Origin: Paracoccaceae bacterium
GTDB taxonomy: Bacteria > Pseudomonadota > Alphaproteobacteria > Rhodobacterales > Rhodobacteraceae
NCBI GenBank assembly: GCA_024742455.1
Contig: JANSYL010000005.1
Location: 1-64,000, forward strand
Direction: 5' to 3'
DNA length: 64,000 bases
Shown: in pieces, positions 22,354 through 36,888 of the stretch
How the letters are laid out: each line of letters begins with the position of its first letter
Position numbering within the stretch: position 1 is the stretch's first letter
The notes under the pieces: model-generated
The model's input: only the letters and a program-made list of their open reading frames with translations
Told to the model about the DNA's origin: nothing
The model's database searches: none
Translations under genes and position numbers: made by a program

Positions 22354-23835
22354 TCAGCGTCCACCGAGGCGTGCGATCGTGCTGTCCAGCCCGGGCGCCC
22401 CGAGCTCCTGGGCCCTGATGTAGAACAGAAGCGCCAGGTTGGGTGAGGGCCCGGTGACGGCGGAATGATTACGCCGGAAGCTTTCCGGATCCGCCATCCG
22501 CGCGATCACGAGCGCCGCGCGCTGCCTGACCTCGATCGCGGCATCCGGATCTTCGACGAGACGGTTCAGTGCCGGGATGACACCCGAAAGCCTCGGCGGG
22601 CCGCCGCCTTCCGCGATCAGGGATTCCACCGCCAGCAATTCCTCGGCGCCTTCGCCCTCGACGGCGGCAGCCGTAGGTCCGGCAGGGTCCGGCGCGGGCA
22701 CCGACGCGATGCCGGCAGTCGGAGCCGCCGCCGTGACCGGCGCTGGACCCGGTGAAGGGTTCGGCGCAGGCGTGGGCGTGACGGGCGCCGCGGATGCGTT
22801 CGAGGCGGTGCTCGGGCCGGTGATTTCGTCGGCTGGTTCAGGGTCGTTCCCGCCCCCACCCAAGACTAGGGCCGCCCCGATACCGACGACCACCAGCGCC
22901 GCCGCCGCCCCGGTCAGCAGTGTGCGCGATATCCCGCCCCCTGATGCGACGGGGGCCGAACCTTGGCCGGTCTGGCCGGTAGCACCAGCTTTCAAGGCCC
23001 GGGGGTCGTTGATCGCCTTCTCGAAGAGGTCGACAAGGTCCGCCGGCCTGTCGTCGGGATCGGCACGCAGAAGCGCCTCGACTGCCCGTTTGAACCCCTC
23101 GGACCCGGCACCGTCGACGGTGATGTCGGTCTTGCGCTTGTCGACTGCCGCCATCCCCTCGCCCTGGCCCGGGATCGGGAGGCCCGCCACCTTGAGCAGC
23201 ACCAGTCCCAGCGCATAGGCGTCGGTTCGCGGGGTGATCCGATTTCCGAACAGGCCGAACTGTTCGGGCGCGGCATAGCTCATCTTGCCGGCGAAGCTGT
23301 GTCCGATGATCGACTGGTCTGTGTTGACCGTATCCGAGGCGAGACCGAAATCGATGAGCTTGGCCTGTTCGATCTGCCCGTGGGGCAGCAGGATGTTGTC
23401 GGGGGCCACGTCGCGATGCACGATGCCGAGTGCATGGATCGCCGCGAGACCGCCGGCCAGGCGCCGGCCCAGTTTCAAAACGTCTTCGGGTGCAAGCCGG
23501 GCCTTGCTTTGGATGTAGTGCGACAGCGGCTTGCCGTCGATGAGTTCCATGATCAAATACAGGCGCCCGGCGCGGTCCTGCAGCGTTGTTTCGTAGCGTA
23601 TCACGGCGTCATGGCGCACATCGCGCAGCAGGGTGCTTTCGCGCTTGAACAGTTGGACGCCGCGGTCGTCATGGGCAAAATTCGGGTGCATGACCTTTAT
23701 CGCCACGTCGTGCTGCGTCGCCAGATTGACGCCCTTGTAGGTCGCCCCCATGCCACCGCGACCAAGCAGTTCGTCGATCCGGTACGTGTCCTGGACGACG
23801 TGGCCCGGTTCGAATTCGAGCGCATCTTGGTTCAT
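22354..23835 (-). CDS. Ser/Thr protein kinase with TM and periplasmic tail (STPK1)
   Basis: A 493-residue Hanks-type kinase: glycine loop GRGGMG (25-30), ATP lysine K47, catalytic loop HRDVAPDN (140-147), DFG (162-164) and APE-like SYAAPEQ. The lysine two after the catalytic aspartate in canonical HRDLKPEN is alanine here. A Pro/Ala linker and a helix (about 300-320) lead to a roughly 170-residue outer part ending in a helical repeat-like segment. AGGAGG precedes the ATG. It is the last gene of the leftward signalling operon. Its targets are unknown; the neighbouring FHA proteins are obvious candidates. Confidence 0.88.
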   Translation of the reverse strand: MNQDALEFEPGHVVQDTYRIDELLGRGGMGATYKGVNLATQHDVAIKVMHPNFAHDDRGVQLFKRESTLLRDVRHDAVIRYETTLQDRAGRLYLIMELIDGKPLSHYIQSKARLAPEDVLKLGRRLAGGLAAIHALGIVHRDVAPDNILLPHGQIEQAKLIDFGLASDTVNTDQSIIGHSFAGKMSYAAPEQFGLFGNRITPRTDAYALGLVLLKVAGLPIPGQGEGMAAVDKRKTDITVDGAGSEGFKRAVEALLRADPDDRPADLVDLFEKAINDPRALKAGATGQTGQGSAPVASGGGISRTLLTGAAAALVVVGIGAALVLGGGGNDPEPADEITGPSTASNASAAPVTPTPAPNPSPGPAPVTAAAPTAGIASVPAPDPAGPTAAAVEGEGAEELLAVESLIAEGGGPPRLSGVIPALNRLVEDPDAAIEVRQRAALVIARMADPESFRRNHSAVTGPSPNLALLFYIRAQELGAPGLDSTIARLGGR

Positions 23836-23869
23836 TGTGATCCTCCTGCCCCTTGTGCTGTGACCCGCC

Positions 23870-24136
23870 TCAACGGCCGGTTCGTTTCAGCGAGAGCGCG
23901 GTATGCTTGGTGAAGGTGCGGATATCCATGATCTGGAAACATATGCCGGCGAAGACGAAGGACATCGTGATCCCGAACACAATGAACAGAAAGCCACCGA
24001 AAATGACGGACAGATCGGCGTTGAATTCAGTGGCGAAGCGGATGAATACCGCCCCTCCGTAGACCGACAGCACGATCAGAAAGCCGGTGGCGATCCAGAT
24101 CAGCAGCTCGAGCGATTTGTTCAGCGTGTCGCGCAT
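23870..24136 (-). CDS. Small two-helix membrane protein
   Basis: An 88-residue protein with two strong hydrophobic segments (about 10-35 and 41-68) and a basic tail (KHTALSLKRTGR). It sits between the protease-FHA and STPK1 genes with short spacers, so it is co-transcribed. No family is recognised. A scaffold or membrane partner for the kinases is possible. The start at 24136 is used because the longer frame runs antisense to the FHA end. Confidence 0.55.
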   Translation of the reverse strand: MRDTLNKSLELLIWIATGFLIVLSVYGGAVFIRFATEFNADLSVIFGGFLFIVFGITMSFVFAGICFQIMDIRTFTKHTALSLKRTGR

Positions 24137-24158
24137 GGGTGTTTCCTTGGCCTTCGGG

Positions 24159-25445
24159 TCAGTCGGGGCGGCTGAGCGAGAGCTGCGCGGTGCCCAGTCT
24201 GACGACCGACTTGGTGTTGATCTGGCGCGGTTGGTGCGCGGCCAGTTGGGTGCCATCGACCGTGGTGCCGTTCGATGATCCGAGATCCGTGATCGTGAGC
24301 TGCCGATTGGTGATTTTCAACTCGGCATGGTGCCGGCTGACACCGTGGGTTTCGCCCTGGGGCAGAACCACATCCGCCTCGGGATGGCGGCCGAGCGTTA
24401 CCCCGCGGGCGAGGTCCTCGGCGCTGAACGAGGTGGCCCCGCGCAGCCCGGCCTCGGGGGCGGCCAGTTTCAGGACCGGTTTGCCCCCGCCTTTCGACGG
24501 CGACCGGCCGCGCGACGATACCTTCCGCATGCCGGCCTGGCGGCTGACCCGCATCGCGCCGCCCGCCGGGGCCATCTGCGACCGCGCCAGCACGCCGCCG
24601 GCGACCAGCAGCGCCGTGGCCAGCGTCGCGAGAAGGGCGATGGTGGCCGGCTGGCTGAGGGAGCCGATGGTGAAGCCAGGGTTGCAGGTCGTCGCGCGCA
24701 GAAGCTCGGCCTGTGTCGGGGCAAGGAACTCGGCGATGGCGTTGGGTGACGAGGAGATGAAGATGTTGTTGATGTCTTCGCCGCTGGGGTCACCGAAGAT
24801 ATAGGCCGTGTTGACGCCGACCACGTGCCCGCACCGATCGAGAAGCGGACCGCCCGAGTTTCCCCGGTTGATGAGCGTGGTGTGTTCTACCAGCTCGATG
24901 ATGCCGGAATTGCTGCCGAACGATCCGTCATAGACCTTGCTGATCGTTCCGACGGTGACGGTGGTGGTAAAGGCGTTGACGCCGCTCGTATCGGCGGCCG
25001 CGATGGCCGAAGCGCCCGGGAAACCCAGTGCGAAGACGGTTTCGCCCCGGCGCAGTTCACGGTCGGCCACGCGCAGGATGCCCGGCCGGTGGGTGCCGGT
25101 TCCGGTATAGGTAATTTCGAGCAGGGCGAGGTCGTAGCCACGCGATTCCCGCAGGATACGTGCCGCGTAGCGCTCCACCCCGTTGCCGTTGCGAAACCCG
25201 ATCTCGAGGTCCAGCGCCCCGCGAACCACGTGTTCGTTCGTCAGGAAATAGTATCGGCCATTGCCCGGCGCCTCGCCGATGACGAAGCCGCTGCCGGAGC
25301 CGAGCGAGATCGCACTGGCGGTCAGAACCCGACCGACGGCGCGGTCAGCCCGTTCCGCCACGTCCGCCACGTCCTGTGCGGCAACCGATGCGGCCGTGAT
25401 CGGGGACAGCGCCAGCGCGAGCGCCGCGATGATGATCCTTACCAT
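24159..25445 (-). CDS. Periplasmic trypsin-like protease fused to cytoplasmic FHA domain
   Basis: A 428-residue protein: signal or anchor helix (1-24); chymotrypsin/HtrA-like protease with triad H72 (TNEHVV), D105 (YDLALLEI) and S197 (GNSGGPLL); a transmembrane helix at about 270-290; a basic Ser/Gly linker; then an FHA domain (about 350-425) with LGRHPEADVVL, GVSRHHAEL and SSNGT. The FHA phospho-threonine site keeps the expected Arg, Ser, His and Asn. The protease must face the periplasm and the FHA the cytoplasm, so cleavage outside could be linked to phospho-signalling inside. It overlaps the STPK2 gene. Confidence 0.85.
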   Translation of the reverse strand: MVRIIIAALALALSPITAASVAAQDVADVAERADRAVGRVLTASAISLGSGSGFVIGEAPGNGRYYFLTNEHVVRGALDLEIGFRNGNGVERYAARILRESRGYDLALLEITYTGTGTHRPGILRVADRELRRGETVFALGFPGASAIAAADTSGVNAFTTTVTVGTISKVYDGSFGSNSGIIELVEHTTLINRGNSGGPLLDRCGHVVGVNTAYIFGDPSGEDINNIFISSSPNAIAEFLAPTQAELLRATTCNPGFTIGSLSQPATIALLATLATALLVAGGVLARSQMAPAGGAMRVSRQAGMRKVSSRGRSPSKGGGKPVLKLAAPEAGLRGATSFSAEDLARGVTLGRHPEADVVLPQGETHGVSRHHAELKITNRQLTITDLGSSNGTTVDGTQLAAHQPRQINTKSVVRLGTAQLSLSRPD

Positions 25446-26581
25446 GGAAGCACACCCCTTCCTGCGAGATAGGCATAGGCCGCGATAACGGTGGCGCCCG
25501 CGACCGCGATGATGACAAGCTTGCCACGCCGCCACAATTCAGCCGTCCAGTCGGCGATGATGCCGGTGACCTGGCCGGGCGCCACGATCGGCGTTGCGCT
25601 GCCCGTCTGGGCCCCCGCCTTTCGCACCCGTAACCGTTCACCCATCCGGCGCAGAAACAGCCGCGCGCTGCGCGGACGGTCCTGTGGGTGCAAGGCGCAG
25701 CCTGCATCGATCAGGTCGAGAAGTTCATCGGAATAGTCATGGTCGAAGCCGCTGCGTGCGAGGTTGTCGCGGATCGGCACGTAGGGATCTTCGCCGGTGC
25801 TGCGCAGCGTGGCGAAGCGTTCATCTGCGGGTCGGGGCAGCCCCTGGCTCATCATCTCGTAGAGCACGACAGACAGCGAGAACAGGTCCGACCAGGGCCC
25901 CACGTCCATGCGCGAGGAATAGTGGGTCACGTCCGAGTTGAATTGCTCCAGCGCCGCGTAGGACCGCGTCAGAAGTGGTGGCAGTTCGACATGGCGGTCG
26001 AGCGGGCGGGCGGCGCCGAAATCGATAAGAACGGGTTCCCCGGTGGCGCGACGGATCATGATGTTCGCAGGCTTGATGTCGCGGTGGGTCAGGCGGGCCT
26101 CGGAATGCAAGATGTGCAGCGCCGATACGATATCGACAGCGAGGTCGCGGATCGTGCGTTCGGGGATGAAGGGACGATGGCGCAGGGTGCGTTCGACCAC
26201 GGTCTTCAATTCCTCGCCATCGACGAATTCCATCACGCAGCAGACCGTGTTGCGGCGCCGGAGCGCGGCAAGCACCTGCACCAGGCCACGCTGCTTCGGC
26301 AGGCTGCGCAGGGTTTCGGTTTCCTCGAGGAACACGCGCTTGCCGATGTCGAAAAGCTCGGCGTTGCGACCGCCCGGCAGGGGTTGGACGGTCCCGTTGG
26401 CAGTGCGGTGCGCATTGGCGCGCGGCAGATATTCCTTGATGGCGACGTCGCTGCCGCTGACGGTGTTGCGTGCCCGGTAGGTGATACCGAATGCACCCCG
26501 CCCGATCATCTTCTGGATCTGGTATCGACCCTCTCCCACCCGGGTGCCGGGTTTCAGTGCCGCCGCCTGCCGTGCTGCCAT
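25439..26581 (-). CDS. Ser/Thr protein kinase with C-terminal TM anchor (STPK2)
   Basis: A 380-residue kinase with GRGAFG (27-32), ATP lysine K49, intact catalytic loop HRDIKPAN (166-173) and DFG (187-189), then a basic linker and a single C-terminal helix (about 355-376), so the catalytic domain is cytoplasmic with almost no outer part. It has all catalytic residues and is probably the active writer in the operon, in contrast to STPK1. It lies between the phosphatase and the protease-FHA genes, overlapping the latter. Confidence 0.9.
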   Translation of the reverse strand: MAARQAAALKPGTRVGEGRYQIQKMIGRGAFGITYRARNTVSGSDVAIKEYLPRANAHRTANGTVQPLPGGRNAELFDIGKRVFLEETETLRSLPKQRGLVQVLAALRRRNTVCCVMEFVDGEELKTVVERTLRHRPFIPERTIRDLAVDIVSALHILHSEARLTHRDIKPANIMIRRATGEPVLIDFGAARPLDRHVELPPLLTRSYAALEQFNSDVTHYSSRMDVGPWSDLFSLSVVLYEMMSQGLPRPADERFATLRSTGEDPYVPIRDNLARSGFDHDYSDELLDLIDAGCALHPQDRPRSARLFLRRMGERLRVRKAGAQTGSATPIVAPGQVTGIIADWTAELWRRGKLVIIAVAGATVIAAYAYLAGRGVLPW

Positions 26582-26591
26582 CGCCGCCCCC

Positions 26592-27812
26592 TCAGCCGTC
26601 GGTCTCGGTCACGGAAGGGATTTCGGCCCCGTCATCCGGCGCCTCGGGTGCGGGTGCGTCGGGGCCGCCGGGGGTGCCCTGCGGCGTATCTTCGGGAAGC
26701 CCGCCATCGGGACCGCCATCGGGCAAGGCATCTGAGTCAGGGGCGCGCGGGGCTCCGTCGATCGTGCCGTTGCTTCCGGTATCCGGCGTGACCCGCGGCG
26801 TGGTCTCGGGGCCGGGCGGAGGCGCGATCACCCCTTCTCCCGGTTGCGCGGGGGCGCTTTCTGCCTCGGCGGGAGCGTCATCGGCGCCGGGAAGAGCGGG
26901 ATCGCCCGGACGCAGCAGTGCAAAATATACAACCAAAAGCGCGATGGCGATGCTGGCGAAAACCACGAGCAGCACGAAGGAAACGCTGCTACGGGTCAGC
27001 CGCTGGGCGGACTGGCCGCTGCTCCAAAGCGGCGGGCCCGCGACGCTGGTCTCGCCCACCGTGCGGTGCCGGTAAATGATGACCGACGTGTTGTCCTGCC
27101 GGGGGCGCTGACGGCTTTCGACCGCCTGAAGTGTCATCGCGGTCAGCGTGCGGACATCGGTGCGGTTCTCGTCGGCCAGCAGGCGCGCGAGGTCGTCTTC
27201 GCCGAGCGTGTCGATGCCGTCGGTGGCCAGGATGACGAGGTCGCGCTTTTCAAGGTCGATCGAGCCGTCGTCGACCAGAGGCACGGTTCCCCCGACAAGC
27301 GCGGATCTGAGGGCATTGCGTCGCGGGTTCTTGTCCGCGTCGGCCTTGGCCATGCGACCTTCGGCGACCAGCTCCATCAACTCGCCATAGACAGAGTGAT
27401 CGGCGTTCAGTCGGCGCAGGGCGCCATCGCGGAAAAGGTAGAGGACGCTGTCGCCGACGCTGATCCAGTACAGACGGTTCTGCCGCTTCAGCGCGCCGAT
27501 CATCGTGCAGCCCATGCCCGACAGGGTGTCGTCTTCGGCCACGCGGGCGGCGATGGCGGCGTTGGCAGCCTGCAGCGAGTCGCGCAGCCGCTGCAGCGGG
27601 CGTGTGGCCTGCGAGACCTGCGTGAAGTGATGCCGGAATGTCTTGACCGCCAGTTCCGCCGCGACTTCGCCGCCCACATGGCCCCCCATCCCGTCCGCAA
27701 TCAGCAACAGTATGCTGGTGTCGGGATCGTCCTTTCTGTCATAGACGATCTCGAACCGGTCCTGCTGGTTGTCGCGCTGGCCGATGCTTTGCCGGCCGCT
27801 GACCTCGGCCAT
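26592..27812 (-). CDS. PP2C-family Ser/Thr phosphatase with TM and proline-rich tail
   Basis: A 406-residue protein. The metal-dependent phosphatase motifs are RDNQQDR (about 13-19), LLLIADGMGGHVGGE (36-49), ATDGID and QDNTSVIIY (D240-N241). A transmembrane helix (277-300) follows, then about 105 residues rich in Pro, Asp and Gly that would lie outside. It should reverse the action of the two kinases on shared targets. It begins 3 bases after the FHA gene ends and precedes STPK2, so kinase and phosphatase are made together. Confidence 0.9.
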   Translation of the reverse strand: MAEVSGRQSIGQRDNQQDRFEIVYDRKDDPDTSILLLIADGMGGHVGGEVAAELAVKTFRHHFTQVSQATRPLQRLRDSLQAANAAIAARVAEDDTLSGMGCTMIGALKRQNRLYWISVGDSVLYLFRDGALRRLNADHSVYGELMELVAEGRMAKADADKNPRRNALRSALVGGTVPLVDDGSIDLEKRDLVILATDGIDTLGEDDLARLLADENRTDVRTLTAMTLQAVESRQRPRQDNTSVIIYRHRTVGETSVAGPPLWSSGQSAQRLTRSSVSFVLLVVFASIAIALLVVYFALLRPGDPALPGADDAPAEAESAPAQPGEGVIAPPPGPETTPRVTPDTGSNGTIDGAPRAPDSDALPDGGPDGGLPEDTPQGTPGGPDAPAPEAPDDGAEIPSVTETDG

Positions 27813-27814
27813 GG

Positions 27815-28465
27815 TCAGGACGATCCGGTATCGGCCAGATCGCTCCAGTCGAAGCTGTCGCCGCAGAATGCAACAAAGCGGACATGCGTCGCCTTGCTCA
27901 AATGGATGGTTGCGTGACTGGGCAATTCCTGTGCCTGCAGCACGATCGTCGATTTGTCGGCCCCGCCCGTGGTGATGCGGGTCGGCGTCTGGCTGGACCC
28001 CGGAGCGATCAGGAAGCTGCGCGCCTCGTCATCGTAGATGATGCGCACGTGGTCCATGGAGGAAATCACCTTGTCGCCGAAGGGCAGGGCCACGCGTTCG
28101 TCGGGCGACCGGCCGATGCGGTTGATGCCTGCGCCGAGCGGGACCGAATGGCCGATACCCTTGCCCTTGATCACGACGAGCCAGCCCACCACCGGGTCGG
28201 CGGCGACGCCATCGTCCGGAGTGCCGAGCACGCCGATCCCGTCGATGATGGTGCCTTCGTCATCCATGGCGTCGGCCCCGTCATCGATGATCTGTGTCGC
28301 CTCGGCGCCGGCGTCCCCACCACGGACGACATCGCCATCCAGCCGCGAGGTGAACCCGCCGGTCAGACCGGCCGTTTCTTCGAATGCGTCATCGCCGTCG
28401 TCGTCGAAGATCCAGGAGGAATCCTCGACCCCGTCGCCGAGATCGGTGCGTTTCTTTCCGGACAT
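27815..28465 (-). CDS. Soluble FHA-type protein with acidic N-terminus
   Basis: A 216-residue cytoplasmic protein: an acidic, Gly/Asp-rich N-terminal half with scattered threonines (possible phosphorylation tail), then an FHA-like domain with RIGRSPDERV (116-125) and SMDHVRIIYDD. The usual SxxH is changed to MDHV, so the phosphopeptide pocket may be altered. By analogy with GarA/Fha-type proteins it could be a kinase-switched adaptor. It starts after the VWA-FHA gene in the same operon. Confidence 0.72.
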   Translation of the reverse strand: MSGKKRTDLGDGVEDSSWIFDDDGDDAFEETAGLTGGFTSRLDGDVVRGGDAGAEATQIIDDGADAMDDEGTIIDGIGVLGTPDDGVAADPVVGWLVVIKGKGIGHSVPLGAGINRIGRSPDERVALPFGDKVISSMDHVRIIYDDEARSFLIAPGSSQTPTRITTGGADKSTIVLQAQELPSHATIHLSKATHVRFVAFCGDSFDWSDLADTGSS

Positions 28466-28514
28466 GGTCTGGCCCTCCGTTTGGCTGGTCGCCGGTCCCC
28501 GCGTCTGAGCGGTG

Positions 28515-30086
28515 TCAGCGAATGATCAGTTTGGTTTCGCGGCTGCCGAAAGTGATCAGGTCGCCGTTCTTGAGCGGTTCGGGTTTGTCGATCACCTTAC
28601 CGTTCAGCCGCACCTTGTTGGTGCTGTTGAGATCGGTGAGGATGATCTGGTCATTGGCGCGGCGTTCGATCTCGGCGTGGAACCGCGAAACGGTCTGATC
28701 TTCCGGTCCTTCGAACAGGACGTCGTTTTCCGGGCTTCGACCGATCCGGGACTTCCGGCCAATAAGTGCAAGCCGCTGGCCGGTGTCCTGGCGCACGAGA
28801 AAGGCCCAGGGTTTTGGCGGCGGCGCGGCGGCGGGCGGGACCGTGGTTTCGTCGTCCTCGACAGCGTCGCCATCATCGAACGCGCCCTCTGCGGCAACGA
28901 CGTCTTCTTCCTCGGCGCCGCGACTGCTGCGGGTCAGCACCACGATCAGGAGTGCCAGAAGCACGGCCAGCACGGCCAGTGCCCCGTACATGATCTCGGC
29001 CGGGAAGCCCCAGGGAAATCCGAGGAACCCTTCCCTGGCATCCACCGGTGCATCGGTCGGGGCTGTTTCGGGCGCCATGTCGATGGTGGGCTGGAAGGCG
29101 ACACGGTATTCGACGTCGTCGAAGGCACCCGAGCGCCCCGCCACCGGTTCACCCAGCGTGACAACGATTTCGGCGGGCGAGGGGGTGCCGACCGGCGCGA
29201 TGAGCCCGGATTGCGAGATCGAGCCCGCGACCTCGCGGCCGAACTGCGCGACCTCGGCTGCCGCGGCCTCAGGGGTGTTGAGGAACACGGCAGCATGGCT
29301 GCCGAGCGATTGCGCCGCCAGCTGCGCCATGTAGTCGATGGCATTTGAAACCGCGGTGGCCCCGGGGGCACGCCAGATCACTGCCATGGTCGAAATCGCG
29401 ACGCCTTCATCGACGGCGGCCTCGGCGATTTCTGCCGCGGACCGGTCGGTCGCCTCATCCTCGCCATCGCTGATGACGATGACATTGCGCAGCAACACGT
29501 CGTCGCGGCGTCCGAGCAGATCGACAACATCCGCAACGTTCGATCCAATGATGGTATTCAGCCCGTCGGGCGCGTCGAGGTTCGCAACGGCGTTGCGGAC
29601 CCGAGCCCGGTCGCCGGTGAAGCCAACGATCTCGGTCAGGGTCGTGTCGAAGGTGTAGACCGCCACCTGTTCACCGTCGGGCAGACTGTTGATCAGGCTG
29701 AGGATGAAGGGACGTTCCTCGTCCCACCGGTTGGCCCGGCCATTGCCCGCCCCGCGGGTGTAGTCGATAAGGATGGCGGTGGCAGAGGTGTTCAGCGCTT
29801 CGGGAAACTGCGGGTCGCTGCCGCGCAGAAACACGAAACGGGCCTCCGGGTCCTCGGCATTGTCGAAGGTGATGCCGCCGTATTGCTGGCGCGGCGGGAC
29901 CCGGACGATGCAGTGGTTGACCGGCACCGGAGGGGCAGGCGCACAGTCGACAACAGCCAGGCCCGTATCGGGCAGGCGGGTCGGCAAGGTGCCGTCCGGC
30001 AGGATTTCCTGCGCCTGCGCCAGAGCCGCTCCGGCCATTCCAAGGCCCATGATCGCGGCCAGCACTCCTTGTCGCAATACGCCCAT
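28515..30086 (-). CDS. Periplasmic VWA domain fused through TM to cytoplasmic FHA domain
   Basis: A 523-residue protein: signal peptide (1-24, ALAQAQ), a VWA domain (about 80-300) with a metal-site-like LIDYTRG (D108, T110, but Gly at the third position), VISDGEDEATDRS and a second periplasmic stretch, a transmembrane helix (about 366-385), an acidic linker and an FHA domain (about 425-523: RIGRSPENDVLF, VSRFHAEI, STNK). It mirrors the protease-FHA layout. VWA domains bind protein or cell-wall partners. It is first in the leftward operon. The start at 30086 exposes the signal; the longer frame has no support. Confidence 0.83.
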   Translation of the reverse strand: MGVLRQGVLAAIMGLGMAGAALAQAQEILPDGTLPTRLPDTGLAVVDCAPAPPVPVNHCIVRVPPRQQYGGITFDNAEDPEARFVFLRGSDPQFPEALNTSATAILIDYTRGAGNGRANRWDEERPFILSLINSLPDGEQVAVYTFDTTLTEIVGFTGDRARVRNAVANLDAPDGLNTIIGSNVADVVDLLGRRDDVLLRNVIVISDGEDEATDRSAAEIAEAAVDEGVAISTMAVIWRAPGATAVSNAIDYMAQLAAQSLGSHAAVFLNTPEAAAAEVAQFGREVAGSISQSGLIAPVGTPSPAEIVVTLGEPVAGRSGAFDDVEYRVAFQPTIDMAPETAPTDAPVDAREGFLGFPWGFPAEIMYGALAVLAVLLALLIVVLTRSSRGAEEEDVVAAEGAFDDGDAVEDDETTVPPAAAPPPKPWAFLVRQDTGQRLALIGRKSRIGRSPENDVLFEGPEDQTVSRFHAEIERRANDQIILTDLNSTNKVRLNGKVIDKPEPLKNGDLITFGSRETKLIIR

Positions 30087-30535
30087 ATCCGCCCCTTTCC
30101 CGCTGTGCCTAGATCGCCAAGGTCTGAAATTCATGCCGCGTGCAATGTGCCGCGCGAGCAGGGCGGAGCCCCAGCCCCCGCCGCCCGGCTGCGACCGATA
30201 CCGGGTAGCCCCGGAAACCGACGATGTCGAGATTACCATATGCGCAACGCCGTGCCGGATCGGCAAGGCTCAACCGGCACGTGCCGGGCGCCACGTGAGA
30301 CTGACCCATGATTGAATGGCCCCCGTTTACGCTACCGGCCACGAACATAAAGATCATCGGCAGTCCGACAACCTGATTCGTTGACGCGTTGCGGTGACCG
30401 CGATTACGCTGGAGATCTGTGGCGTGCAGCCGGTCGCCGCGACGCGGTCCGCAGAGCTACGGACCCCAACGTGGGGCCGCATTGACGCCGATCGAGAGCA
30501 AGGTTGCGTGGGTGCAAGGGTAGCGGGGTCTGAGC
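30087..30535. promoter_or_regulatory. Divergent intergenic region of the signalling island
   Basis: About 450 bases between the leftward VWA-FHA operon and the rightward membrane-protein operon. No gene is supported: frames on both strands lack ribosome-binding sites. A possible rightward promoter is TTGACG (30381-30386) and TACGCT (30405-30410) with an 18-base spacer. The region must hold promoters for both operons, which makes shared control likely. No clear operator repeat is seen. Confidence 0.4.
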
Positions 30536-31144
30536 GTGGTGCGACTGAAACGCGAACGCAAGTATTCGGGGGTGGACGACGACCCCTACAGCCTGCGCAA
30601 CCTCGTGGGCCTCGCCGCAGATGCAACCTCGCTCTACAAGAATATCTCAGACATCTTCGGAGGCGTCGTGCTGGCAGCAGGGCCGACGGCGGCCATGCTG
30701 GGTATCGTGTCGGAAAGTTTCGGCTCAGGGTTCACTGCGCTGATCACGCCCGAAACGATGAGCCTGCCCATTCGGCTGGCGATCTTCCTGCTGATCGCCG
30801 CTGCCCTGGGCATCGGCCTGGCTTTCGCCACCAACAAGCTGATCCTGCGCCCGACGGAATTCCGCGTGCTTGCCTGCTACGTGCTGGGTCTGTTCTGGGC
30901 CGGGCTCATGGTGGGTTCGGCCGATTGGCTGTCCCAGCCCGACGATCGCAATACCGTGTTCCCCGAGCTGACGCTGTTCACGCTGATCGGGCTGGCGATC
31001 GCTGCCAAGGGCATGGGGTTCATGTTCCGGGCGCGAGCGGAGCAGGCGGGCGGGGCACGCATGGTGCTGGTGCGCAGCGGCGTGATTCTTGCCTTTGCGA
31101 CCGGCGTCATCGTCGTGTTCGCGCTGGCGAGCCTGGAGGGCTGA
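30536..31144 (+). CDS. Four-helix membrane protein of the signalling island
   Basis: A 202-residue protein with a short basic cytoplasmic start and about four to five hydrophobic helices (about 38-60, 75-97, 105-125, 135-155, 178-200). No known family is recognised. The start is a GTG at 30536 (GTG GTG CGA CTG), without a strong ribosome-binding site. The stop is 3 bases before the next gene, an RDD-like FHA protein, so it is co-transcribed. Confidence 0.65.
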   Translation: MVRLKRERKYSGVDDDPYSLRNLVGLAADATSLYKNISDIFGGVVLAAGPTAAMLGIVSESFGSGFTALITPETMSLPIRLAIFLLIAAALGIGLAFATNKLILRPTEFRVLACYVLGLFWAGLMVGSADWLSQPDDRNTVFPELTLFTLIGLAIAAKGMGFMFRARAEQAGGARMVLVRSGVILAFATGVIVVFALASLEG

Positions 31145-31147
31145 GCG

Positions 31148-31906
31148 ATGCCCCGCGGGCCATTGCAGAGCCGGGCGAGTGCGAAAGTCCTGATCGCGGC
31201 GGCGGTCATCGACCTGTTCTTCGTGGTCCTGTTGACGCAGGCGCTGGCGCCCGCGGTGCAGCGTGAACTGCGCCTCGAGCATCCCGAGCTTGTCGATATC
31301 GGCAGTTTCCTGGCGCTGTTGCTGGTCTACTGGATCGTCACCGAACTGATCCTGGGCGGGGTCAGTATCGGACGCGCGGTGCTGGACCTGCACCTGCGAG
31401 ACGCGTCCGGAGCGCCGATGCGCGGCGCACGCAAGTTCAGGCGCGGGATGGCCAAGATCGCCACCGGCGGGTTGACGGGGCTGAATCCGAACGCGCCGGC
31501 GCGCTATGACCGAAGCTGCGAGGCATGCTGGTATTCATCGCTGGCCGGTCCTCCGCCCAAACCGCCAGCGAAATGGCGTCTGCGGGTTATGACCGGGGCC
31601 CATAAGGGCTTGACGGTGACACTTGGCGACGTGGCACGGTTTTGCGCCAAGCGCAGGCTCAATATCGGCCGTGACCCCGGTTGGGCGGATATCGTCCTGC
31701 CCGATGATCGAACTGTGTCTTCCCGGCATTGCATCATCGGTCTCAAGGACGGTGTCGTGCTGGTCAAGGATCACGGTCTTGACGGAACCGGATCAGCGTC
31801 GGGGGTATGGATCGACGGGCAGCGCGTGACGCCGGGCCGGGCCGCACCGCTGACCGGTGCGCGAGAGCTGCGGCTGGGTTCCGTGCGCATCGGTATCGAC
31901 GGCTAG
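31148..31906 (+). CDS. RDD-like membrane protein fused to FHA domain
   Basis: A 252-residue protein: two N-terminal transmembrane helices (about 11-33 and 52-75) with RDD-like features (GVSIGRAVLDLHLRD), a short Cys/Pro linker, then an FHA domain (about 145-250) with LNIGRDPGWADIVL, VSSRHCII and a glycine-rich late loop. It is the fourth FHA protein of the island and the only one anchored through an RDD-like unit. It completes the set of membrane-tethered phosphopeptide readers. Confidence 0.75.
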   Translation: MPRGPLQSRASAKVLIAAAVIDLFFVVLLTQALAPAVQRELRLEHPELVDIGSFLALLLVYWIVTELILGGVSIGRAVLDLHLRDASGAPMRGARKFRRGMAKIATGGLTGLNPNAPARYDRSCEACWYSSLAGPPPKPPAKWRLRVMTGAHKGLTVTLGDVARFCAKRRLNIGRDPGWADIVLPDDRTVSSRHCIIGLKDGVVLVKDHGLDGTGSASGVWIDGQRVTPGRAAPLTGARELRLGSVRIGIDG

Positions 31907-32044
31907 CCAGGCCCGCCAGGGTATCGGGCCGCGTCACATCCGGGCAAATTTCGAATCGTCGGAGCAGACATTTTTTTCTTACCCCGGTGTCGAACCGTGC
32001 TACGTTGCACGGGTAGAGTTGCTAATGACTTCCTGGAGGGAACG

Positions 32045-33304
32045 GTGTTTTTCAAAACTGCAACGTCACTCGGGCTGGTCGCTGCATTGGCCTTGACCCC
32101 CGCGAAACCGGCCGAGGCGGATGCCGGCGAATTGATCGGCGGGCTGATTATCGGCGGCATCATCGCAAGCGCGATTGCATCCGGCAACCAGCGCAGTTCC
32201 GGCGGACAAACGACGCGCGCCGCGCGCCCCAGCATTCCCGCGACCGAACAGGGCCGTCAGACCCAGACCGCGCTGAATTATTTCGGGTTCAACGCCGGTA
32301 CTGTCGATGGCCAGGTCGGACCCGGCACCCGGGCCGCGATCGAACGCTACCAGCTTGCAATGGGTTTCCCGGTGAACGGGCGCGAGTTCACGCCCGATCA
32401 GTACGATTTCCTGTCCAGCGCCTATACCTGGGCAACGGCGGGTGGAGCCAACCAGACCGGCCTTGCCAACACCTCGTTGCTCTACGCATACCGCGACAGC
32501 GTGCTGAACACCGCCCCGGTGGTTGCAGGCGGCCCGCGCGCGCCCGCGACCATGGTGGCGATGCCGCAGAACGGGTCCGACAGCGCCGCGCCCACTGTGC
32601 CGAACTTCTTTGCAAACGCAGCGGCCACCCCGGCGGTGTCGCTGGCCAGCACCTGCAACAGCGTGATGCTGCAAAGCTCGACCAACGGCGTCATGACGCT
32701 TGCGAATGTGACGACGGATCCGGAACTCGTGCTGTCCGAGCAGTTCTGCATCGCGCGGACCTATGCCATCAGCGATGGTGAACGGATGATGCGATCGATC
32801 ACCGGCTTCACCCCAGACCAGATCGCCGCCCAGTGCCAGGCGTTCATGGGCCTGCTGGCCGACCCGATCGACCAGGTTTCGATCGTGGGCCAGGACGAGG
32901 TCCTGACGCAGGTTCGCAGCTTTGCCAATGACAGCGGGTCGCAGCCGGCCGAGCTGGCCGCGAATGCACGGGTCTGCCTGTCGGTGGGCTATGCCCGTGA
33001 CGACATGCGCATGGCGGTGGGATCTTCGCTGGTGCTGACTGCGCTTGGCGAACCCGCCTATGGCGAACTGGTCGGCCACCACCTGCGCGAGGGCTTTGGC
33101 ACGACCACCCGGCCCGATCTCGCACTGGACTGGTACGACGCGAGTATGTCTGCGCTGGAAACCGGCGCGCGCCCGGCCTTCATGCCGGGACAGCCCGAAC
33201 GTACCCTTCTGGTGCGCACGGCCGTGAACGAATTGGGTGGCCCGGCGCCTGAAATGGTGCCTGTTCCCGCAGCGTTGCCGTCCTTCTCGGTGCAGCAACA
33301 GTAA
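32045..33304 (+). CDS. Exported protein with glycine zipper and peptidoglycan-binding domain
   Basis: A 419-residue exported protein (GTG start at 32045 after TGGAGGG; signal about 1-26). The mature start is a glycine zipper (GGLIIGGIIASAIASG, about 32-47), which can insert in membranes or self-associate. A peptidoglycan-binding-1 type domain follows (about 70-125: ALNYFGFNAGTVDGQVGPGTRAAI). The remaining 290 residues are helical and unrecognised. It could link the cell wall to the envelope sensors encoded beside it. A terminator closes the operon. Confidence 0.78.
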   Translation: MFFKTATSLGLVAALALTPAKPAEADAGELIGGLIIGGIIASAIASGNQRSSGGQTTRAARPSIPATEQGRQTQTALNYFGFNAGTVDGQVGPGTRAAIERYQLAMGFPVNGREFTPDQYDFLSSAYTWATAGGANQTGLANTSLLYAYRDSVLNTAPVVAGGPRAPATMVAMPQNGSDSAAPTVPNFFANAAATPAVSLASTCNSVMLQSSTNGVMTLANVTTDPELVLSEQFCIARTYAISDGERMMRSITGFTPDQIAAQCQAFMGLLADPIDQVSIVGQDEVLTQVRSFANDSGSQPAELAANARVCLSVGYARDDMRMAVGSSLVLTALGEPAYGELVGHHLREGFGTTTRPDLALDWYDASMSALETGARPAFMPGQPERTLLVRTAVNELGGPAPEMVPVPAALPSFSVQQQ

Positions 33305-33458: not shown

Positions 33459-33533
33459 TGGAGCGGGTGATGAGATTCGAACTCACGACCCTTACCTTGG
33501 CAAGGTAATGCTCTACCCCTGAGCTACACCCGC
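33459..33533 (-). tRNA. tRNA-Gly (anticodon GCC)
   Basis: The bottom strand folds as a complete cloverleaf: acceptor GCGGGTG/CACCCGC, D arm GCTC...GAGC, anticodon stem TTACC/GGTAA with loop TTGCCAA (anticodon GCC), T arm GTGAG-TTCGAAT-CTCAT, discriminator T and encoded CCA (33459-33461). It decodes GGC and GGU, matching the high-GC codon use. No integration or duplicated 3' end is seen next to it. Confidence 0.96.
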
Positions 33534-33607: not shown

Positions 33608-34306
33608 TCAGCTGGCCTCGATCACAAGGTTGTCGAGCGCGTAGGATTCATCGCCGCGGTTCTGGTTGGTGTCGGAATAGACCGACAGGGTCAGCTGATC
33701 ATCGGGGTTGTCGACGGTCAGGGTCACGGTGGTGATGGACTCGGTCCAGCCGGGGCGCGTGTTGCCGCCAAGCTCCTGGCGGCGGGCGACCTCGGTCAGG
33801 GTGACGCCGATGTTTTCACCGCTCAGGTCGGTGAAGGTGATCTGGCCGAAATCGCCGCGCCCGAGCAGGACCGGGCTGCCGTTGATCGAGATCGTGGCCG
33901 GTTCGCGGTCGATGCTGTCCATGCCGATCAGGTCGAAGGTCAGCGTGGCGGTGTCGGCACCGTCCGGCACGTCGACCGTCAGGCTGGCGGTTTCCTTCGG
34001 CCCGATCTGCAGCACGTCACCAAGCGCGCCGCCGACATTGACGGGCCAGCCGCCGACCCAACCGGCCGCGGCCCCTTGCGCGAAATCGAAGGCGGCCAGC
34101 ACCATGGGGGCGAAGGGTGCGAAGGCGGCGCTGGCATGGACATCGGTATCGGCGAGGAAGGCGTCGATATCGCCCGAGACATCATTGGCCCCGCGCGAGA
34201 TAACCGACATCGACGCCAGCCCGAGGCCGAGCGTCGCCGTGGCCATGATCACCCAATCGGTGGTCACCGCCCCCTGTTCGGATCGCAAAAAGGCCATCGG
34301 TCGCAT
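33608..34306 (-). CDS. Flp-pilin-like N-terminus fused to beta-rich domain, paralogue 1
   Basis: A 232-residue protein. The N-terminus (EQGAVTTDWVIMATATLGLG) resembles Flp/Tad prepilins: a Gly cleavage site, Asp at +5, then a hydrophobic helix. After a spacer comes a beta-rich domain of about 150 residues with FDLIGMDSID, ISINGSPV and a final ESYALDNLVIE, a jelly-roll pattern. It is the most divergent copy of four tandem genes. GGGAGAGGA precedes the ATG. A minor pilin or surface adhesin is possible; no Tad assembly genes are in the window. Confidence 0.65.
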   Translation of the reverse strand: MRPMAFLRSEQGAVTTDWVIMATATLGLGLASMSVISRGANDVSGDIDAFLADTDVHASAAFAPFAPMVLAAFDFAQGAAAGWVGGWPVNVGGALGDVLQIGPKETASLTVDVPDGADTATLTFDLIGMDSIDREPATISINGSPVLLGRGDFGQITFTDLSGENIGVTLTEVARRQELGGNTRPGWTESITTVTLTVDNPDDQLTLSVYSDTNQNRGDESYALDNLVIEAS

Positions 34307-34408: not shown

Positions 34409-35107
34409 CTAGGCCGCGGCGACGACCACGTTGTCGATCGCGAAAAAGCCTTGCGCCATGGCGGTGTCGCTGCCCGACCGGACGGAAAGCGTCAGCGTGT
34501 CGCCCGGATCGGCGATGGCGACAGCGACCGACAGGACGGCATCGGGGGCCAGCCCCGCGCCCAGGTCACGCCCGCCTGCGGCCAGCATCGCGGTGACGGG
34601 GGCGCCGGGCGGGGCCTCGAACACGGCAGTTCCCGCCTCGACCCGGGCGATGCCGATGGCGACGCCATTGACCCAGATCTCGGAGGCAGCGCCCGAAAGG
34701 GCATCGGCACCGACAAGGTCAAATCGGATCTCGGCGGTCCGGGCGCCTTCGGGCAGGGACAGGGTGGTTTCGACCGTGCCGCCCGGATCGATCACCAGGA
34801 TATCGCCGAAACCGGCCACGGTGGTGATCGTGCCGTCGCCGCCCCAGCCGTCGAGCCCGGCCGAAAAGCCGGTATCGGCCAGAACCCATGCGCTGGCGCC
34901 GGTGTCGTGGAAATTGTCGATCAGAGGGCGGCCCGCAAGGGACGAGGCGACATCGGCCGACAGGTCGTCGAATCCGCCCGAGACCACGCTGACCGTGGCA
35001 AGGCTCAGACCGATGCACGCCGCAGAAATCACCATCCAGTCGACGGAGACGACCCCAGTTTCGTCAGCGGCGAATGCGGTCAGTTTGGCAGCAACCGACA
35101 TCCTCAT
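34409..35107 (-). CDS. Flp-pilin-like N-terminus fused to beta-rich domain, paralogue 2
   Basis: A 232-residue paralogue: N-terminal DETGVVSVDWMVISAACIGL (Gly, then Asp at +5), a 30-residue linker, then the same beta domain pattern (FDLVGADALS, IWVNGVAI, FFAIDNVVV). It begins at ATG 35107 or 35101. It is separated from paralogues 1 and 3 by roughly 90-100 bases each, so the genes may have separate translation but one transcript. Confidence 0.65.
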   Translation of the reverse strand: MRMSVAAKLTAFAADETGVVSVDWMVISAACIGLSLATVSVVSGGFDDLSADVASSLAGRPLIDNFHDTGASAWVLADTGFSAGLDGWGGDGTITTVAGFGDILVIDPGGTVETTLSLPEGARTAEIRFDLVGADALSGAASEIWVNGVAIGIARVEAGTAVFEAPPGAPVTAMLAAGGRDLGAGLAPDAVLSVAVAIADPGDTLTLSVRSGSDTAMAQGFFAIDNVVVAAA

Positions 35108-35194: not shown

Positions 35195-35929
35195 CTAGAA
35201 CCCGGTCGCGCCGGTGGTGGCGCTTTCGAAATTGTCGATGCCCCAGAATTCGTCGTTGATGTTCTGGTTCGAATTAGACTGCAGCGCGAACTGGATGTCG
35301 GAGGTCGGCTGATCCACCGTCACGGTCACCGTTGCCGCGCTGTCGGTCCAGTTCGAGCTTCCGCCCAGATGGGCGTTCTGCACCGTCACCGTGGCCTCGA
35401 CCGTGGTGCCATCGACCTGCGGGATGTCGAAGGTCATGGTCTGGTGGTTGTCCGTGGCGATGGCGACGGGCACGCCGTTCAGCATGATCGTGGCGGTATC
35501 GGTGCCCCATTGGGCGGAATTGTCGAGGCTGTCGCCCGCGATCAGGTCGAACTGCATGATCGCCTGTTCGGTGCCCTCGGCGACCTGCATCAGGTAGCCG
35601 GTCGCCTGGTTCGGCCCCAGCACCAGCAATTCGCCGATCTGGCCGCCCATATCCATGACCTGCCCGCCGATCCAGCCGGCCATGTCGCCACCGGTGAAAT
35701 TGAAACTGTCCACGGGGATCAGCCCGTTGTCGAACAGGTTCCAGTCATTGCTGGACAGGTGGTTGCTGATATCGGTCGACAGGTTCTCGAGCCCGCCGGA
35801 CACGACCCCCATCGAGGCAAGGCCGAGACCCGCCACGGCGGCGGTCATCACGGTCCAGTCGACGGTGATCGCGCCGCGTTCGTCGGCAACGAAACGGGCG
35901 ATGACGCAGGGCAGCAGATTGGACGGCAT
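35195..35929 (-). CDS. Flp-pilin-like N-terminus fused to beta-rich domain, paralogue 3
   Basis: A 244-residue protein closely related to paralogue 4. The N-terminus is DERGAITVDWTVMTAAVAGLG; the beta domain has FDLIAGDSLD, IMLNGVPV, NAHLGGSSNW and a final DEFWGIDNFESATTGATGF. The start at 35929 is fixed by GGAGG 9 bases upstream, and the same leader (GGAGGATTCGGCC) precedes paralogue 4. The Gly-Met-rich stretch (GGQVMDMGGQIGEL) is distinctive. Confidence 0.68.
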   Translation of the reverse strand: MPSNLLPCVIARFVADERGAITVDWTVMTAAVAGLGLASMGVVSGGLENLSTDISNHLSSNDWNLFDNGLIPVDSFNFTGGDMAGWIGGQVMDMGGQIGELLVLGPNQATGYLMQVAEGTEQAIMQFDLIAGDSLDNSAQWGTDTATIMLNGVPVAIATDNHQTMTFDIPQVDGTTVEATVTVQNAHLGGSSNWTDSAATVTVTVDQPTSDIQFALQSNSNQNINDEFWGIDNFESATTGATGF

Positions 35930-36064
35930 GGCCGAATCCTCCAGGTTCATGGTGGAAGGATCGCCGTCAAGAATGGTCAGACTGTGGCGAATTCTTGTAA
36001 AATCAGCGCCTTTTCGGACGGGGCGCCAGCGCGCGGGCCGCTGGCCCGCCGGGTGGCTGTGCCC

Positions 36065-36802
36065 CTAGAATCCGGTCGCACCGCTGGTTGCGGTTTCGAA
36101 ATTGTCGATGCCCCAGAATTCGTCATTGATGCCCTGGTTCGCATTCGACTGCAGTTCGAAATGCAGGTCATGCGTGGGGTCATCGACGATGATGGTGACG
36201 CTGGCCGATCCGTCCTGCCAGTTGGCGCTGCCGCCCAGATGGGCATTTGCCACCATCACCGTGGCCTCGACCGTGGTGCCGTCGACCTGCGGGATCTGGA
36301 AGTTGAGATGCTGATTGCCGTCGGTGGCGATGGCGACCGTCACCCCGTTCAGGGTAAGGGTGGCGGTGTCATAGCCTGTCGCCCCGGGATTGTAGTCGAG
36401 GCTGTCGCCCGCGATCAGGTCGAACTGCATGACCGCCTGTTCGGTGCCTTCGGCCACCTCCATCAGAAATCCGGTGACCTCACCGGCGCCGACCACCAGC
36501 AATTCGCCGATCTCGCCGCCCATATCCATCACCTGGCCGCCGAACCACCCGGTCATGTCGCCGCCGGTGAAATCGAGGCTGACGCCGGGGATCATCCCGT
36601 TGTCGAACAAGTTCCAGTCATTGGTCGACAGATGATTGCCGATATCGGTGGACAGGTTCTGGACCCCGCCCGACACGACCCCCATCGAGGCAAGTCCGAG
36701 CCCCGCCAGCGACGCGGTCAGTACCGTCCAGTCAACGGTGATTGCGCCGCGTTCGTCGGCAACAAAACGGGCAATGAAATGCGCAGGCGTCGTCGTCGGC
36801 AT
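36065..36802 (-). CDS. Flp-pilin-like N-terminus fused to beta-rich domain, paralogue 4
   Basis: A 245-residue protein nearly colinear with paralogue 3 (DERGAITVDWTVLTASLAGLG, FDLIAGDSLD, LTLNGVTV, DEFWGIDNFETATSGATGF). The two most likely arose by recent tandem duplication including the ribosome-binding leader. It is the first of the four after pyruvate carboxylase on the bottom strand; no clear promoter or terminator is seen in the 86-base gap. The likely fate is export and anchoring by the N-terminal helix. Confidence 0.68.
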   Translation of the reverse strand: MPTTTPAHFIARFVADERGAITVDWTVLTASLAGLGLASMGVVSGGVQNLSTDIGNHLSTNDWNLFDNGMIPGVSLDFTGGDMTGWFGGQVMDMGGEIGELLVVGAGEVTGFLMEVAEGTEQAVMQFDLIAGDSLDYNPGATGYDTATLTLNGVTVAIATDGNQHLNFQIPQVDGTTVEATVMVANAHLGGSANWQDGSASVTIIVDDPTHDLHFELQSNANQGINDEFWGIDNFETATSGATGF

Positions 36803-36888
36803 GGCCGAATCCTCCGGATCGTTGGTCGGGAAGATCACGGGCAAGAATGGTCGGACTGTGGCGAAATCGGGAAAAAACCGCGCCCGTC

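Follow-up and report, generated by a model that had tools for sequence, protein, structure and literature searches.

A nine-gene kinase, phosphatase, and FHA protein locus of Rhodobacterales as a probable type-VI-free relative of the threonine phosphorylation pathway

Results

We analyzed 64,000 nucleotides from a Paracoccaceae bacterium (positions 1 to 64,000 of contig JANSYL010000005.1, assembly GCA_024742455.1; hereafter the window), in which a compact locus encodes two Ser/Thr kinases (K1 and K2), a PP2C phosphatase, four FHA proteins (protease-FHA, VWA-FHA, RDD-FHA, and FHAs), two small membrane proteins (mem1 and mem2), and an exported peptidoglycan (PG)-binding protein (Table 1). Our analysis indicates that nine of these genes, at 22354-31906, are probably related to the threonine phosphorylation pathway, in a rewired form free of type VI secretion, a reading to which we assign a probability of about 0.7. 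TagQRST-PpkA in Pseudomonas aeruginosa reports outer-membrane damage (PMC11881912), and PpkA phosphorylates Fha, which PppA reverses (PMC11881912, PMC6657622, PMC3224232). Gene content, homology, and synteny were computed directly, as were the searches in which tssB was not found in carrier genomes and TagR and the PpkA-type VWA protein were not found in the window genome.

Conservation and synteny of the locus in Rhodobacterales

A search of 149 family genomes with protease-FHA returned, besides the window, one match spanning both domains, in genome G050 (38% identity; E, 7.5e-59); weak matches occurred in 146 of the other 147 genomes (best, 5.7e-15) and, among the matches listed, concerned the protease domain in most cases. 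A mem1 match was present in 4 of 394 genomes (the window, G050, G552, and G092), of which G092 was excluded from the carrier count since its mem1-like protein (36% identity) is a far paralogue without any other cluster gene nearby. An alignment scan of genome contigs with mem1 gave ten loci (the L039-L048 range, with the contig of G552 entering via L041 and the two counted as one carrier), whereas the same scan with the protease gave no match. These loci belong to Cereibacter johrii, a Natronohydrobacter sp. (metagenome-assembled genome [MAG]), Litoreibacter roseus (the G552 contig), Roseovarius gahaiensis, Pseudodonghicola xiamenensis, Rhodobacter capsulatus DSM 1710, two Ruegeria, an alphaproteobacterial MAG, and Rhodobacteraceae bacterium PARR1 (MAG). 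Together with the window and G050, they amount to 12 carriers, and the named carrier genera are all Rhodobacterales (NCBI taxonomy). Because VWA-FHA (E, 1e-12) matched in 0 of 384 other genomes of the class sample, carriers are rare. The best conserved part of the system, and its marker, is mem1 (54 to 67% identity to 8 relatives); K1 is 42 to 63% identical to 11 relatives over the matched stretches. Plasmid-borne spread was considered and rejected, as neither the protease (E, 1e-15) nor mem1 (E, 1e-5) had a match in a plasmid collection.

The full order VWAFHA-FHAs-PP2C-K2-protFHA-TagT-TagS-TagR-mem1-K1-VWA was read in 8 of the 11 other carriers (G552, L040, and L042-L047), with the last gene of L040 running off its contig and the FtsX gene of L042 reading as two pieces. 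L045, L046, and L047 cluster closely in the tree, so the eight full loci are not all independent. Of the three remaining carriers, two have part of the set and one is truncated: the G050 locus contains K2 through VWA and is without PP2C, FHAs, VWA-FHA, and RDD-FHA, L039 is a short contig beginning inside K2, and in L048, which is also cut, K1 and VWA are visible. A TagR-like gene adjoins mem1 in all 10 relatives with that side readable. RDD-FHA is present in 10 of 12 carriers, being absent from G050 and from G774 (the genome of L039). It lies on the contig of the operon in 8 of the 9 relatives that have it (G552 and G775-G781) and on a separate contig in G782; in G552 and L090-L093, mem2 and RDD-FHA were seen immediately next to the operon, and in G775, RDD-FHA and the operon share one orientation. 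The complete gene set occurs in Rhodobacter capsulatus DSM 1710 (L044 and L091).

The first-pass annotation had treated ten genes as one island. Its expectation that they are conserved together held for nine of them (22354-31906), which form the conserved unit. The tenth, the PG-binding gene, is beside RDD-FHA in none of eight readable relatives (a ninth, L075, ends there) and is therefore excluded from the unit and lies outside the conserved system.

As separate observations on the Cereibacter-type loci (L028/L029 of G050, and L039), their arrangement is roughly a mirror image of the window, with the Tag arm kept. L039 is cut before the PP2C, FHAs, and VWA-FHA genes, and RDD-FHA was also not found in its genome. 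In G050, an 820-residue protein without a Pfam match is encoded after the VWA gene (L029:6411-8873).

Tag and PpkA homologues inside the operon of relatives

In relatives, the genes between the protease and mem1 encode an ABC ATPase (TagT), an FtsX-like permease (TagS), and an exported protein of the FGE/SUMF1 type (TagR), and K1 is followed by the gene for an exported protein whose VWA match is weak (E, 0.0058, below the cut-off). When 398 genomes of the phylum were searched with the FGE (TagR-like) protein, 15 matched at 1e-20, and we examined 12 of these 15 loci. In four of four loci (L084-L087), the Tag and PpkA homologues stand beside TssM, and L087 also has TssB and TssC; the order in L085 is TssM-TagF-PppA (PP2C)-PpkA-TagT-TagS-TagR-glycine-zipper protein. 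The stand-alone VWA protein of Rhodobacterales aligns with the C-terminal ~610 residues of these PpkA proteins (33 to 34% identity; E, 1e-96 to 1e-101), so that K1 and the VWA protein look like PpkA split into two genes. BLAST scores with PpkA are 84 to 89 bits for K1 and 55 to 63 bits for K2, and K1 is the probable counterpart of the PpkA kinase domain.

Six further loci (L078-L083) contain VWA-TagT-TagS-TagR rows with no K1/K2-like kinase in stretches of 14 to 20 kb, and a PF10139 (SrfC-like) gene was present in three of three loci tested. The proteins labeled PpkA in loci of this type may lack a kinase domain. L088 has a VWA-TagT-TagS-TagR row with a glycine-zipper gene, and L089 has the FGE match only.

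A candidate for TagQ was found next to the operon. Upstream of VWA-FHA, G552 encodes a glycine-zipper protein and, after it, a coiled-coil protein, each of which has a lipobox-like sequence; related pairs occur in L090-L093. The coiled-coil lipoprotein gene is upstream in all eight full loci (including L040, L042, and L046), and the TagQ-like glycine-zipper gene is in five full loci and as a fragment in L040, with the stretches of L042 and L046 ending before it. TagQ is described as similar to a 17-kDa Rickettsia antigen (PMC3608642). Scores against the Rickettsia antigen family PF05433 were 24.7 bits for G552 and 24.6 bits for L086 (cut-off, 24.2), with L085 just under at 24.1 bits.

FGE enzymes have active-site cysteines. 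No cysteine is invariant in the FGE-matched core of the TagR-like proteins (residues 102-287 in G050 numbering), which fits a role in binding rather than catalysis; cysteines are invariant at 45, 402, and 503 and nearly invariant at 123. The first-pass annotation had been unable to match the locus to a named system, a view that the TagT, TagS, TagR, and PpkA-VWA homologues in the relatives' operon and the TagQ-like lipoprotein next to it do not support.

Search for a type VI machine

tssB was found in none of the 12 carrier genomes, for 3 of which completeness is known, and tssC in neither of two carriers tested. Neither the window nor 250 kb of sequence from carriers, in partly overlapping stretches, contained a match for TssM, TssB, TssC, or TagF. 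The first-pass annotation had proposed conserved synteny without secretion genes as a check of its stand-alone view, which these findings do not refute. tssB occurs in 9 of 36 other family genomes versus 0 of 12 carriers, a difference that is not significant (Fisher p, 0.088), and we dropped the idea that carriers avoid type VI secretion. Regulation of a type VI system in trans is disfavored, as neither tssB (12 carriers) nor tssC (2 carriers) was found.

The window copy is without the sensor arm

With the TagQ-like, coiled-coil, ABC, FtsX, FGE, and VWA proteins as tblastn queries, nothing was found below an E of 0.1 in the 64-kb window except ABC ATPase matches, one at 16.3 to 16.9 kb, away from the locus (E, 9e-17), and one at 7.2 to 7.4 kb (E, 0.007). 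TagR (FGE) and the VWA protein were not found in the whole genome of the window at an E of 0.001, in searches that did find them in G050 (the query's own genome) and G552. Whereas relatives carry three genes between the protease and mem1, just 22 bases separate the protease stop from the mem1 start in the window. The window groups with L040 (support, 0.95) in an unrooted concatenated tree and takes a nested position (0.81 to 0.92) in a kinase tree that also includes K2 and PpkA (both FastTree). Because of these placements, our analysis favors loss of the Tag/VWA arm in the window over primitive absence. The window copy keeps the two kinases, PP2C, the four FHA proteins, and the FHA-tethered periplasmic protease intact.

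Gene content and predicted topology of the window locus

Ten intact open reading frames occupy 22354-33304, where the first-pass annotation had placed them, and Pfam matches bear out its two kinases, PP2C phosphatase, three of its four FHA proteins, and its peptidoglycan-binding protein (PG_binding_1). Seven are transcribed on the minus strand in the order VWA-FHA, FHAs, PP2C, K2, protease-FHA, mem1, and K1. For the two genes whose frames extend far upstream, starts were chosen at 25445 and 30086; on this basis, the spacing of the seven genes is -7 to 49 bases, and these short gaps make a single operon likely. mem2 and RDD-FHA diverge from this series; a promoter scan of the divergent region found none.

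Table 1. Genes of the window locus, in window coordinates
Gene	Position	Strand	Product	Basis
K1	22354..23835	-	Ser/Thr kinase, one transmembrane helix, periplasmic C terminus	Pkinase E 1.4e-38 (Pfam)
mem1	23870..24136	-	88 residues, two transmembrane helices	without Pfam family above cut-off
protease-FHA	24159..25445	-	HtrA-type trypsin-like periplasmic domain, transmembrane helix, cytoplasmic FHA	Trypsin_2 E 8.9e-22, FHA E 5.4e-17
K2	25439..26581	-	second Ser/Thr kinase, C-terminal transmembrane helix	Pkinase E 1.7e-33
PP2C	26592..27812	-	phosphatase, transmembrane helix, acidic proline-rich tail	PP2C_2 E 3.8e-15
FHAs	27815..28465	-	soluble protein with degenerate FHA	FHA match in 5/9 members; invariant G-R, S, H
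VWA-FHA	28515..30086	-	periplasmic VWA, transmembrane helix, cytoplasmic FHA	FHA E 8.4e-18, VWA_2 E 3.3e-8
mem2	30536..31144	+	small membrane protein, about five transmembrane helices, divergent	hydropathy; matches adjoining RDD-FHA in relatives
RDD-FHA	31148..31906	+	RDD-like membrane domain and FHA	FHA E 6.8e-11, RDD E 2.8e-4
PG-binding protein	31997..33304	+	exported protein	PG_binding_1 E 6.1e-10; judged outside system

Hydropathy and signal-peptide-like N termini predict a layout in which the protease and VWA domains lie outside and the kinase, phosphatase, and FHA domains lie inside. Hydrophobic stretches occur at residues 301-319 of K1 (motif HRDVAPDN), 355-373 of K2 (HRDIKPAN), 277-295 of PP2C (DGMGGH), 7-25 and 272-290 of the 431-residue protease-FHA frame, and 366-384 of VWA-FHA, whose N terminus is signal-peptide-like. 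H72, D105, and S197 of protease-FHA are invariant in 9 of 9 members and, from the surrounding motifs, are presumed to be a catalytic triad; no PDZ family was matched in this protein (Pfam, E up to 0.05). The RDD match of RDD-FHA falls under the Pfam cut-off (21.6 versus 24.1 bits).

The window copy of FHAs scores under the Pfam cut-off for FHA (15.7 versus 20.7 bits), and an FHA match at an E of 0.05 or better occurs in five of nine family members, the window copy included (best, 1.6e-7). G118-R119, S135, and H139 are invariant in nine of nine. Profile comparison with the protease-FHA family gave a probability of just 5.8% (E, 0.0066), and the AlphaFold model of FHAs (mean predicted local distance difference test score, 38.2) was too poor for use.

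Discussion

Relationship to known systems

The Rhodobacterales set resembles the H1 type VI threonine pathway of P. aeruginosa (TagQRST-PpkA-PppA-Fha) in placing a kinase, a PP2C phosphatase, and FHA readers at the inner membrane, and relatives also have the TagT-TagS-TagR order in common with it, along with the VWA half of PpkA and a TagQ-like lipoprotein of the glycine-zipper type. It differs in that tssB was not found in carriers and PpkA is split into two genes, and it adds a second kinase, an FHA-tethered protease, VWA-FHA, and RDD-FHA. The window copy departs further: a PppA-type PP2C is present, but the Tag genes and PpkA-VWA are missing, and K1 has a transmembrane helix without a VWA half, where relatives have the split gene pair. 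We treat the window set as akin to the type VI threonine phosphorylation pathway and not as a member of it, since tests of the window genome for TagQRST, PpkA-VWA, and a type VI machine were negative.

Tag genes without a secretion machine have a precedent in the type-VI-free TagQRST/SrfABC neighborhoods of host-associated Deltaproteobacteria (PMC3608642). The VWA-TagT-TagS-TagR rows of L078-L083, with their PF10139 gene in the three loci tested, compare with these; unlike the Rhodobacterales set, they showed no K1/K2-like kinase in the 14 to 20 kb read. Like the DegS/HtrA envelope stress proteases, protease-FHA is a membrane-tethered periplasmic trypsin-like protease with a catalytic triad motif, but its tether is C-terminal and leads to a cytoplasmic FHA domain, and it has no PDZ match. 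TerY-P triads unite a VWA protein, a PP2C phosphatase, and a kinase. The window has all three, but no cytoplasmic TerY-type VWA; its VWA domain lies between a signal-peptide-like stretch and a transmembrane helix and is joined to FHA.

Proposed mechanism

The kinase-substrate relationships, the signal, the output, and loss as opposed to primitive absence are matters that we infer. K1 and K2 would phosphorylate threonines on the cytoplasmic side of the inner membrane, PP2C would strip these phosphates, and the four FHA proteins would read the phosphothreonines. Three of these readers are predicted membrane proteins, whose other domain is a protease or a VWA domain in the periplasm or an RDD-like domain in the membrane. 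The input in relatives would come from an envelope sensor of TagQ-TagR-TagS-TagT and VWA. Because this outer sensor arm is missing in the window, the remaining periplasmic domains (the K1 tail, the VWA domain of VWA-FHA, or the protease) or a signal from inside would have to drive the window circuit. Since no secretion machine was found, the FHA proteins of the operon itself are the likeliest readers, and the output may be that phosphorylation gathers or activates the envelope proteins tethered to FHA domains, above all the protease. We prefer phosphate-dependent gathering of the protease as the probable output. Going further, it is conceivable, and we put it forward tentatively, that phosphothreonine signaling here is directed outward across the inner membrane, gathering an FHA-anchored periplasmic protease together with the VWA and RDD partners, such that phosphorylation in the cytoplasm would turn on proteolysis in the periplasm, and that the window copy, cut from both TagQRST and the weapon, acts as a free-standing switch for envelope repair or stress.

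Several points weigh against this reading. The unit is modular, because G050 keeps the Tag arm without PP2C, FHAs, VWA-FHA, and RDD-FHA at the locus. The output is a guess, as no conserved output gene was found, and function is argued from homology. Assignment of K1 as the PpkA kinase draws on position and BLAST score, and the kinase tree does not settle the question. The weakest link is the G552 glycine-zipper protein, which appears TagQ-like by family, lipobox, and place only and which gave no tblastn match in L084-L088. The searches for TagQ, TagS, and TagT covered the 64-kb window, the tree placements behind a loss come from FastTree trees of moderate support (0.81 to 0.95) with long branches, and the small number of carriers of known completeness qualifies the tssB result.

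Alternative explanations

The locus could instead be a decaying remnant, its sensor arm and target lost and the rest on its way out. The Tag, lipoprotein, and VWA genes of relatives are indeed missing at the window locus, and TagR is lacking in none of the 10 other carriers readable there. We nevertheless regard decay as unlikely, considering that the nine frames are open with intact catalytic motifs and operon-tight spacing and that, besides the ABC ATPase matches (9e-17 and 0.007), no residue of the missing genes was seen below an E of 0.1. An independent envelope-sensing circuit unrelated to type VI signaling, as the first-pass annotation had it, would accord with FHA proteins that are not of the TagH family (TIGR03354, 30.6 and 29.7 bits versus a cut-off of 120.25, which none of the four reaches) and with the finding of no match for protease-FHA, VWA-FHA, or RDD-FHA in L084-L087. 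Independence is hard to square with the TagR, TagS, TagT, and PpkA-VWA homologues that the operon of relatives contains, and we doubt this explanation to the same degree as decay.

It seems quite improbable that the circuit controls an injection machine, type VI or other, whose genes lie elsewhere in the genome. TagR and PpkA homologues do sit in type VI loci of other genomes, and the genome of the window is a draft (98.75% complete), but the searches for tssB (0 of 12), tssC (0 of 2), and TssM, TssB, TssC, or TagF (none in the window and 250 kb) argue against such a machine; other injection systems were not searched. An anti-phage defense system is very hard to credit: both kinases match the PADLOC models PD-T4-6 and MAD6, but these matches reflect the kinase fold (NCBIfam MAD6, 137 and 106 bits versus a cut-off of 460), and among the other eight proteins PADLOC matches only the protease (RT-Protease_XI, 3e-13) and PP2C (1.6e-5), with no partner genes.

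Significance

The TagQRST-PpkA pathway has been studied as a trigger of type VI secretion, and no description of the Rhodobacterales cluster was found in the literature, searched at the level of leading titles. A conserved version in which no sheath gene was found suggests that the damage sensor is a portable module used in several contexts, namely, type VI loci, PF10139 (SrfC-like) loci, and, in Rhodobacterales, alongside membrane FHA proteins. Because Rhodobacter capsulatus DSM 1710 carries the full set, the role of the sensor without the weapon is directly testable there. The window copy poses the converse question of what the kinases do without the sensor.

Neighborhood of the PG-binding gene

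Beyond the PG-binding gene lie three tandem minus-strand genes (window 33608-34306, 34409-35107, and 35195-35950) encoding proteins of 232 to 251 residues without a Pfam match, whose similar N termini recall a Flp-pilin-like hydrophobic stretch and whose C-terminal halves are alike. Their neighbor at 36065-36844 encodes 259 residues, likewise without a Pfam match, and is perhaps a fourth member of the series. Between the PG-binding gene and the three tandem genes is a tRNA-Gly(gcc) gene (window 33459-33533), a possible insertion point.

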